The notes beneath the pieces are model-generated. The model saw only the letters and a program-made list of their open reading frames with translations. It did not search any database and had not been told where the DNA came from. Shown piece after piece: positions 4,608-30,920 of a stretch of 30,920 bases of DNA. The DNA is taken from IMG/VR virus record IMGVR_UViG_3300043469_000931, positions 1-30,920 of that record; one strand, 5' to 3'. Position 1 is the first letter of the stretch. The number at the start of each line of letters is the position of its first letter. This stretch comes from a virus. The translations under genes were made by a program, and so were the position numbers.

Positions 4608-4710
4608 TATATTTGCCAATGTAGAGTCGTCGCTACAATTAAAAATTTTATACAATTCCCGCAATGATAAAGACGACGACCTTTTGATTTGCGGGTTTTT
4701 ATTTAAAAAT
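4608..4710 (+). promoter_or_regulatory. Promoter plus structured leader RNA A
   Basis: TATATTTG at 4608-4615 matches the Bacteroidota -7 element TAnnTTTG; no clear -33 TTG is seen. The leader holds four pairing segments in interleaved order: A GTCGTCG (4626-4632), B CCCGCAA (4658-4664), A' CGACGAC (4674-4680), B' TTGCGGG (4689-4695). Gaps are 25, 9 and 8 nt. B' is followed by TTTTTATTTAAA and then the ATG at 4711. A small local hairpin GTAG/CTAC (4621-4624 with 4633-4636) encloses segment A. Leaders B and C have the same layout with unrelated stem sequences. Confidence 0.75.
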
Positions 4711-4950
4711 ATGAATACATTATTAGTACAGGGATTTAAGATTGACATTAACCACTTTGATACACAAATATCAAAAAGTGGCAGACCATTTAGGTTGAGT
4801 GGTGTTGAAATAGTAAGAACTAAACCGGCACAATGGGTGAATAAAATATTACTGCATGGAACTATTTACAGCTTCCGATATTTGGATGAGCAAGATGGTT
4901 TCTTTGCTTTTGAGTTTGATCCGTTTAACAATTTTATTTCAAAAATATGA
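4711..4950 (+). CDS. Small early protein, function unknown
   Basis: 79 residues, first gene behind leader RNA A. The ATG at 4711 is chosen because the alternative TTG at 4684 would lie inside the leader just before the B' stem. The protein is soluble-looking, with a central GTIYSFRYLD and a C-terminal FFAFEFDPFNNF, suggesting a small beta-rich fold. I do not recognise a family. Its stop overlaps the next start (ATGA), so the two are translationally coupled. Confidence 0.7.
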   Translation: MNTLLVQGFKIDINHFDTQISKSGRPFRLSGVEIVRTKPAQWVNKILLHGTIYSFRYLDEQDGFFAFEFDPFNNFISKI

Positions 4951-28569: not shown

Positions 28570-28702
28570 TTTGTTTATTAATTATAAATTACTATATTTG
28601 TAACCGAGTTGGTCAGAACTCTAAACCGAAGCATAACTAATTCCCTTCTGACCTTACGACTGACCTCGTTTGTATTGGAAGGGATTTTTTATTTAAACTA
28701 TT
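28570..28702 (+). promoter_or_regulatory. Promoter plus structured leader RNA B
   Basis: TTTG (28570-28573) and TATATTTG (28593-28600) are spaced 19 bases, a full Bacteroidota promoter. The leader has segment A CGAGTTGGTCAG (28605-28616), B TCCCTTC (28642-28648), A' CTGACCTCG (28660-28668; pairs with A with a 3-nt bulge) and B' GAAGGGA (28678-28684). Gaps are 25, 11 and 9 nt. B' is followed by TTTTTTATTTAAA and the ATG at 28703. CTGACC occurs twice (28648-28653 and 28660-28665), and both copies can pair with GGTCAG, so alternative folds are possible. Confidence 0.75.
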
Positions 28703-28918
28703 ATGAAAACACTATTTGACAATTTAAAAGAAGAACACAAATTGCAGTTGGAAGTGATGAAAGAAATTTATCCAAACTCCCACGCAAGATTGGTAAAAGC
28801 ATTAGAAGAAAATTATTTGTATTCTCTACTGACAATATCGGATGCTTATACCTTGATTTTAAACACGAGTAACAAAAGCTTTTCAATAACTAACCTATCA
28901 GACCTATTTTATGAGTAA
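28703..28918 (+). CDS. Small early protein, function unknown
   Basis: 71 residues, predicted mainly helical (MKTLFDNLKEEHKLQLEVMK) with a C-terminal hydrophobic/polar mix. First gene behind leader B and overlapping the next gene by 8 bases (ATGAGTAA). No family recognised; its place upstream of the ssDNA-binding gene suggests a DNA metabolism role. Confidence 0.65.
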   Translation: MKTLFDNLKEEHKLQLEVMKEIYPNSHARLVKALEENYLYSLLTISDAYTLILNTSNKSFSITNLSDLFYE

Positions 28919-30228: not shown

Positions 30229-30250
30229 ATAGCATTCAACACAACTAATT

Positions 30251-30276
30251 AAACCACCTTAACCGGTGGTTTTTTT
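30251..30276 (+). terminator. Intrinsic terminator after the ssDNA-binding gene
   Basis: AAACCACC (30251-30258) pairs with GGTGGTTT (30265-30272) around a 6-nt loop and is followed by a T-run through 30276. It separates this operon from the repeat-rich region and the primase-helicase promoter. Confidence 0.85.
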
Positions 30277-30277
30277 A

Positions 30278-30545
30278 TTTTAAACCAAGTTTAAAATTTT
30301 AAACTTTTTTAAACTAATTTTAAACCAAGGTTTTCAAGAATATCAAGGCTTAACGTCGATTTTAAACCAAGTTTAAAACTTTTTCTATAAATAATAATTT
30401 TTTTCTAAAATAAAAATATAAAATAATATATTTTAAACTTGGTTTAAAAGGTTTAAAAACTTTGTAAAGCACTATAAAATAAGGAAAGTTTGGTTTAAAA
30501 TTAGTTTAAAATAGTTTAAAATAATTTAAATTAGTTTAAAAGCAT
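30278..30545. repeat. TTTAAAC/GTTTAAA palindrome array (candidate origin or operator)
   Basis: This fills most of the 440-base gap between 30228 and 30669. It holds three full 17-bp palindromes TTTAAAC-N3-GTTTAAA: 30279-30295 and 30361-30377 with spacer CAA, and 30432-30448 with spacer TTG. Partial copies occur at 30319-30333 and 30488-30499. TTTTAAAC half-sites repeat at 30297, 30307 and 30318. Immediately before the promoter are four 10-bp units at exact 10-bp spacing (30501-30540, consensus wtAGTTTAAA). The region is extremely AT-rich. It precedes the replication operon, which fits a replication origin, an operator for the operon, or both. Confidence 0.65.
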
Positions 30546-30563
30546 TTATATTAAAATAAATCT

Positions 30564-30668
30564 TATATTTGCATAACCTCTTACACTTGAAAAGTATTAT
30601 ATTAATCCGATTTTGAAACTGAGGTAAGAGGCAGTGGATAAATCGGATTTCTTATTTAAAAAATATTT
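30564..30668 (+). promoter_or_regulatory. Promoter plus structured leader RNA C
   Basis: TATATTTG at 30564-30571 lies just after the repeat array. The leader has A CCTCTTAC (30577-30584), B AATCCGATTT (30604-30613), A' GTAAGAGG (30624-30631) and B' AAATCGGATT (30640-30649), with all pairs perfect (8 and 10 bp). Gaps are 19, 10 and 8 nt. B' is followed by TCTTATTTAAA and the primase-helicase ATG at 30669. The layout matches leaders A and B. Confidence 0.78.
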
Positions 30669-30920
30669 ATGGAAGAATCTAAATTAAAAAAGTTCTACGA
30701 AAACTTTTCTTTGATAACAGTATCAGATAACAAAGTTCCTAACTTTATTTGGAAGCAATCTCAAAATGAAAAACAATCCTGGGATAGCTTTATTAAAAAT
30801 TTTAATTACAAAGGCGGTTTAATTAAGAAGGATGGTAAAGAAATCCCTCCAACTACAAATTTTGGAATAGTTACAGGATTTGATTACCTGGAGTGTATTG
30901 ATGTAGATTTAAAAGTATTT
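30669..30920 (+). CDS. Primase-helicase, N-terminal part (continues at base 1)
   Basis: The ATG at 30669 begins the primase-helicase; 125 bases run to the unique end at 30793 and the frame then continues in phase at base 2 of the window. The first 84 residues are visible here (MEESKLKKFYENFSLITVSD onward) and include the prim-pol DxD motif IDVD at 77-80, within the duplicated 127 bases. The start is supported by leader C directly upstream. See the entry at 1-2152 for domains. Confidence 0.88.
   Translation, partial: MEESKLKKFYENFSLITVSDNKVPNFIWKQSQNEKQSWDSFIKNFNYKGGLIKKDGKEIPPTTNFGIVTGFDYLECIDVDLKVF
30794..30920. repeat. Terminal 127-bp overlap, right copy
   Basis: Identical to bases 1-127. 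Removing one copy gives a unit of 30,793 bp in which the primase-helicase gene is intact. Confidence 0.9.

Follow-up and report, generated by a model that had tools for sequence, protein, structure and literature searches.

The window, which is the whole stretch of DNA that we analyzed, is virus record IMGVR_UViG_3300043469_000931 (30,920 bases). Because its first and last 127 bases are identical (1–127 and 30794–30920), the record most likely represents a whole phage genome (about 30.8 kb) that is circular or circularly permuted. Its terminase region is 71% identical to that of Flavobacterium phage 11b. The terminase gene lies with other long ORFs in a block on the - strand (6532–27089), where promoters of the type described below occur without leaders. 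The early/replication half of the window contains three structured leaders, which we call A, B, and C. All three are on the + strand, as are their parts and the ORFs behind them.

Leader C lies upstream of a primase-helicase gene (Prim-Pol plus DUF3987), whose 5' part is at 30669–30920 and which continues across the terminal repeat to 2152. The first ORFs behind leader A (4711–4950, 79 amino acids) and leader B (28703–28918, 71 amino acids) have no family match. Directly upstream of leader C is a very AT-rich stretch of about 330 bases (30229–30560) with many TTTAAAC/GTTTAAA units, three copies of TTTTAAACCAAG, and one inverted CTTGGTTTAAA. This stretch is a possible replication origin with iterons.

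Anatomy of the three leaders

The initial annotation described each leader as four pairing segments in the order A-B-A'-B', with a TGA after segment B. The segments of all three leaders lie where it placed them, and the TGA is present in 3 of 3. Its gaps between segments hold as well, except that the A'-to-B' gap of leader B is 12 nt instead of 9. It did not describe that A and A' lie in hairpin loops (in leaders A and B), that another helix (P2b) lies inside B/B', or that a U-tract follows B'. Below, K and K' are segments A and A', and P2a is the B/B' helix.

Leader A begins with a promoter -7 element of the Bacteroidota type (TATATTTG, 4608–4615), which is kept as TAnnTTTG in relatives. Hairpin 1 (4620–4637) has the stem P1 (TGTAG/CTACA) and a loop with an A followed by the kissing word K (GTCGTCG, 4626–4632). 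Hairpin 2 (4658–4695) is built from P2a (4658–4664/4689–4695), a symmetric internal loop (UGAU/UGAU, 4665–4668/4685–4688), and P2b (4669–4672/4681–4684), with K' (CGACGAC, 4674–4680) at its tip. Overall, TGTAG-AGTCGTCG-CTACA pairs by its loop with CCCGCAA-UGAU-AAAG-ACGACGAC-CUUU-UGAU-UUGCGGG. A U-tract (4696–4700) follows P2a directly and ends 10 nt 5' of the start codon (ATG at 4711). The TGA of the initial annotation is, in leader A, the 5' half of the tandem G-A internal loop. This loop (tandem G-A with flanking U-U) recurs in some unrelated leader families, and we take it to resemble the non-Watson-Crick quartet of SECIS elements. Among the 47 leader families described below, 11 have GA on both sides, as compared to 2.1 expected, so the feature is enriched and not universal.

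Leader B has the same -7 element (TATATTTG, 28593–28600). Its hairpin 1 (28606–28621) has P1 (GAGTT/AACTC) and the loop GGTCAG, which is K (28611–28616). In hairpin 2 (28642–28684), P2a (TCCCTTC/GAAGGGA, 28642–28648/28678–28684) encloses P2b (ACGA/TCGT, 28656–28659/28666–28669) and the loop CTGACC, which is K' (28660–28665). A U-tract of six T (28685–28690) precedes the ATG at 28703. In leader C, the -7 element (TATATTTG, 30564–30571) is followed near the 5' end by K (CCTCTTAC, 30577–30584), for which no stable P1 is predicted. Hairpin 2 (30604–30649) has P2a (AATCCGATTT/AAATCGGATT, 30604–30613/30640–30649), P2b (ACTG/CAGT, 30618–30621/30632–30635), and K' (GTAAGAGG, 30624–30631), and a U-rich tract (TCTTATTT, 30650–30657) lies before the ATG at 30669.

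Thus, leaders A and B make their first pairing by loop-loop (kissing) contact between two hairpins: the hairpin at the 5' end has a loop of 6–7 nt that is the perfect complement of the apical loop of the second hairpin. Leader C is closer to an H-type pseudoknot because no stable stem encloses its first segment. The P2 hairpins have predicted folding energies of -12.8 to -15.5 kcal/mol.

Relatives, covariation, and the extent of the class

We wrote a descriptor that requires a TAnnTTTG promoter and then A-B-A'-B', with at least 6 Watson-Crick pairs in both helices. On both strands of the window, it found exactly the three leaders (scores of 17.0, 19.0, and 21.5). In 60 shuffled windows there were 0.63 matches each at any score and a total of 4 matches at scores of 17 or above, so the chance expectation at the leaders' score is about 0.07 per shuffled window.

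Leader A has relatives (83.5% identity, E = 5e-24) in an unannotated gap of 34 annotated Flavobacterium phage records, where it precedes a different gene than in the window (an HNH endonuclease with NUMOD4). With both loop words held constant, a pattern scan matched 110 stretches of IMG/VR contigs, and the AT-rich ones among these are mostly leaders. We then scanned the contigs with the inner stem fixed and the loop sequence free. All 57 leader-like sites had 7/7 complementarity to the loop in hairpin 1, and they carry 9 different K' loops (counted as loop octamers). Matches that are not leaders were mostly complementary at 4–6 of 7 positions.

An alignment of relatives of leader A (A2; 33 sequences, chosen with P2a pairing in mind and with a few mis-trimmed rows omitted) had 98.8% of its cells paired, versus 79.1% if shuffled and 30–50% if the alignment was slid. 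In the same alignment, 130 cells had double changes (37.9 if shuffled), and the covariation score was 0.501 (0.129 if shuffled and at most 0.057 if slid). All four helices covary, including P1 and K, with double compensatory changes at 19 of 22 pairs. In the kissing helix, every cell is paired, and double changes occur at 6 of its 7 pairs. In the leader-B family, P1 covaries across 15 relatives. The initial annotation had claimed covariation from the three leaders of one genome; true covariation is now found among the leaders of related phages.

A natural double mutant occurs among isolates of one host: phages tooticki6-1 and hattifnatt9-1 have GTGAGACG/CGTCTCAC and mumin6-1 has GTGGAACG/CGTTCCAC. 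The orthologous leaders of tooticki6-1 (contig L469, 6126) and mumin6-1 (L470, 7202) have matched double changes in both loop words. More broadly, isolated Hattifnattvirus and Muminvirus phages of Flavobacterium LMO6/LMO9 carry such leaders. When we compared leaders B and C and about 25 other representatives to annotated phages by BLAST, only the LMO phages were found. We saw no convincing leader in Flavobacterium phage 11b, in Cellulophaga phage phi18:1, or in the first 20 kb of pippi8-1. To look for leaders in host chromosomes, we scanned 84,980 species genomes; the pattern for the A subfamily had 21 matches, of which only one (L364) is a real leader. Overall, sequence comparison establishes where the leaders lie and what they contain: the promoter, the two hairpins with their kissing or pseudoknot contact, and the U-tract. 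We are nearly certain that the structure is real.

Across 2.75 Mb of fetched contigs, the descriptor identified 194 deduplicated leaders with scores of at least 16.5, as compared to 6 in shuffled DNA. These leaders form 41 BLAST clusters. With an enlarged set of contigs there were 69 clusters, and we retained 47 of them as families; the other 22 were removed by eye as coding sequence or repeats, which weakens the count. There are thus about 47 sequence-unrelated families of leaders in related phage contigs, as found by a descriptor that demands the promoter and whose matches received some curation by eye. In 36 of the 47 families, the first segment is surrounded by a P1 of at least 4 bp (17.8 expected), and in 25 by a P1 of at least 5 bp (8.2 expected). 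This corrects the pseudoknot topology that was originally proposed: its usual form is two kissing hairpins, with leader C nearer to the H-type.

We also gathered relatives of the primase gene by protein similarity, blind to leaders, which gave 67 distinct upstream regions. The descriptor matched 35 of these at relaxed limits and 28 at scores of at least 16.5, and those 28 leaders have 17 different kissing words. Unrelated leaders of the same design are found before the same primase gene in different phages, including orthologs of the gene behind leader C. Where the descriptor did not match, the primase gene often comes directly after another ORF; a few of these regions have leader-like pairs that were missed.

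Across the leaders, the genes behind them encode Prim-Pol/DUF3987 primase-helicases, NUMOD4-HNH homing endonucleases, BT4734-like/PriCT primases, DEAD helicases, a Lin1244-type protein, and a DNA methylase, or they are small ORFs of unknown function. This bears out the proposal of a family of structured leaders that is defined by its topology and that heads replication or early operons, including that of the primase-helicase. The homing endonuclease genes appear to move together with a leader of their own. A nearly identical leader A is found on the NUMOD4-HNH genes of many phages (for example, L001 6001–6115 [L376 13282–13396]), as if it were part of one mobile cassette. In the contigs L031, L037, L049, and L095, the GTCGTCG leader and its upstream flank are constant and the short genes behind them differ. 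Each of these genes lies behind a sequence that starts with TATAACG and has GTTATAA-like palindromes, so that the arrangement resembles cassettes with attC-like recombination sites behind a phage leader. Some leaders (in L028, L074, L147, L050, and L018) have an extra small hairpin, such as GGTTAA-TAAC-TTAACC, in the linker that separates the two kissing hairpins.

Candidate mechanisms

We infer the function of the leaders from their layout. Our best reading, to which we give a probability of roughly 0.4, is a conditional terminator (attenuator) or pause that is capped by the kissing contact. The leader RNA would act in cis, with transcription starting just downstream of the TAnnTTTG promoter, so that the first part to be transcribed would be the small hairpin or, in families that lack it, a bare segment at the 5' end. 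Its loop word K would then pair with K' in the apical part of the second hairpin, whose base, P2a, directly adjoins the U-tract 10–20 nt 5' of the first gene. Together, P2a and the U-tract would serve as an intrinsic terminator or a strong pause site. The K:K' cap, which would form ahead of the closing of P2a, would set how often RNA polymerase stops and may act for or against termination. The early or replication genes would be opened only upon relief, for example by a factor that recognizes the shape.

We favor a conditional terminator or pause because the U-tract is tied to the stem and because, at leaders A and B, hairpin 2 is the only terminator-like element that we found after the preceding gene and before the next operon. 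If the ATG is within 20 nt, the T fraction at positions +1 to +6 after the stem is 0.79 (T content was not a selection criterion). The U-tract belongs to the stem since the T fraction near the stem is still 0.66 when the ATG is over 25 nt away. At promoters without leaders in the same contigs, T is only about 0.2–0.4 in the corresponding stretch, and positions -10 to -20 are A-rich, not T-rich. P2 has the layout of an intrinsic terminator, with a stable stem and a directly adjoining U-tract. Two points count against this reading. Our terminator scan did not call P2, because the scan allows loops of at most 8 nt, and the T-runs of the leaders (5–6) are shorter than that of an ordinary terminator in this phage (30251–30279).

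How would the stop be relieved? By eye, we saw no competing helix in alignment A2, where the linker is A/U-rich and has no strand that matches the varying P2a. All of the leader helices are mutually compatible, which also counts against attenuation of the classical kind. A two-state switch is thus unlikely to be built into the leaders, and the regulator would more naturally be a factor that recognizes their shape. We also considered a leader peptide. Hairpin 2 of leader A contains a frame of 7 codons (NTG ATA AAG ...TGA), which is lost or shifted in relatives (L016 and L033), and leaders B and C have no ATG between the promoter and the gene start, so we rejected a leader peptide. No conserved upstream ORF was seen.

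More tentatively, the leaders may form a phage-wide code, which we consider possible rather than probable. One RNA architecture, recognized by its shape, would mark the early or replication operons, and a private kissing word for each leader would prevent cross-pairing. The words would become diverse through compensatory changes and through the exchange of whole leaders before the same gene. The recognizer may be a phage or host factor or RNA polymerase itself. In 64 non-redundant contigs with at least two leaders, just 1 of 121 pairs of leaders shares a 6-mer of the word (a repeat artifact), as compared to 6.0 expected by permutation (P = 0.009), and no contig has the same word of the A subfamily twice. 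That words differ within a genome is suggestive only, because many of the contigs were fetched via one word. The initial annotation proposed that the leaders coordinate the early genes; if they do, the difference argues against one sequence-specific regulator acting in trans, and a factor specific for the shape may act instead. Distinct K words plausibly keep the leaders of one genome from pairing with each other in trans.

Alternatively, a loop-loop pseudoknot upstream of the start codon might activate or block translation initiation, in the manner of the IncI-alpha repZ pseudoknot or the T4 gene 32 leader. The median distance from the end of the structure to the ATG is 15 nt, which is close enough to make a role in translation nearly as natural, and intramolecular loop-loop pseudoknots that control translation have precedent. 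But the U-tract's position follows the stem and not the ATG, the distance to the ATG varies from 7 to over 50 nt, and we saw no sequestered start site or Shine-Dalgarno sequence in the leaders. We consider a translational switch less likely than attenuation.

The compact fold could instead be armor for the 5' end that only shields the mRNA from host or defense nucleases. In most leaders, hairpin 1 starts a few bases past the promoter, the fold appears to have a single state, and it is independent of the downstream gene. Armor leaves the U-tract and the fixed place before a gene unexplained, and we view it as distinctly unlikely.

The terminator-like 3' end and the K word that is unique to each leader could also be explained if the leader terminates to release a small RNA, roughly 90 nt long, that acts on other RNAs through its loops, as C4-type systems use loop words, with the gene read by leakage. 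However, K and K' occupy each other, and nearly all leaders precede an ORF. Furthermore, the words of leaders A and C have no other copies anywhere in the window. The 6-mers of leader B occur at two other sites, and a second CTGACC lies within leader B itself. We rejected these words as targets of another RNA in this genome, and a free small RNA is improbable. Finally, although single 6-mers pair at random and some singleton matches are clearly false, chance pairing in AT-rich DNA or DNA-level inverted repeats is refuted for the class by the shuffles, the covariation, and the fixed strand and order relative to promoter and gene, and has almost no probability.

Comparison with known RNAs

At the head of many early-gene mRNAs in viruses of Flavobacterium-like bacteria, almost all letters of the leader vary and the pairing persists, which points to a widespread kind of RNA control element without an earlier description. 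If so, this would be a large class that tends to escape sequence-based RNA discovery, because topology and not letters defines it. It would also provide a first handle on early-gene control in flavobacterial phages and supply orthogonal kissing-loop leaders that are ready for use in Bacteroidota. The leaders can be tested now because isolated Hattifnattvirus and Muminvirus phages carry them.

The initial annotation knew of no named family with this layout, and our searches agree. Rfam 15 had no matches in the window at the gathering score, and at E ≤ 5 there were just two weak matches, both away from the leaders; the c4 covariance model did not match the window. At E ≤ 1, nothing was found in contigs L018 and L110, and L085 had one sub-threshold match of 32 nt. 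We did not find a description of kissing-hairpin leaders in the literature that we searched. The description of the LMO phages (PMC7077304) does not contain the words intergenic, non-coding, promoter, or RNA structure. Similarly, the part of a survey of 104 RNA motifs (PMC2864571) that was covered contains no recognizable counterpart. As far as these tools reach, single features of the leaders have precedents and the combination is new.

Some of the closest known systems are leader pseudoknots. Asano and Mizobuchi reportedly described, in 1998, an intramolecular loop-loop pseudoknot that controls translation. The repZ/repA leader pseudoknot of IncI-alpha, IncB, and IncL/M plasmids acts together with an antisense RNA and a leader peptide. 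As in our leaders, two hairpins of the leader pair loop-to-loop, here close to where a replication gene begins to be translated. Unlike repZ/repA, the phage leaders have a first hairpin adjacent to the promoter, a U-tract, and dozens of unrelated words, and leaders A, B, and C have no translated peptide that would open the structure. The leader of T4 gene 32 is also a pseudoknot in a phage mRNA upstream of a replication gene, but it is a compact, autoregulatory H-type pseudoknot of one gene that is bound by the gene's own product. In contrast, our leaders are kissing hairpins that are repeated over operons, and the genes behind them, which encode primases, helicases, HNH endonucleases, and a methylase or are unknown ORFs, include none assigned to a single-stranded DNA-binding protein.

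Other precedents are RNAs that control phage transcription or plasmid replication. The C4 antisense RNA of P1/P7 (Rfam RF01695, c4) and the CI RNA of P4 are phage RNAs with short, phage-variable complementary words that control termination. They act in trans on separate target sites, whereas the words of leaders A and C are found only within their own leader in the window. The put RNA of HK022, like our leaders, has two hairpins and lies where phage early transcripts begin, but its sequence is conserved and it has neither loop-loop pairing nor a U-tract, while our leaders vary in sequence and have both. The kissing complex of RNA I and RNA II of ColE1, which acts with Rom in the control of plasmid replication, likewise has a loop-loop helix of 6–7 bp that is free in sequence and is read by its shape. 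That contact joins two molecules, whereas in the phage leaders the kissing contact lies within one.
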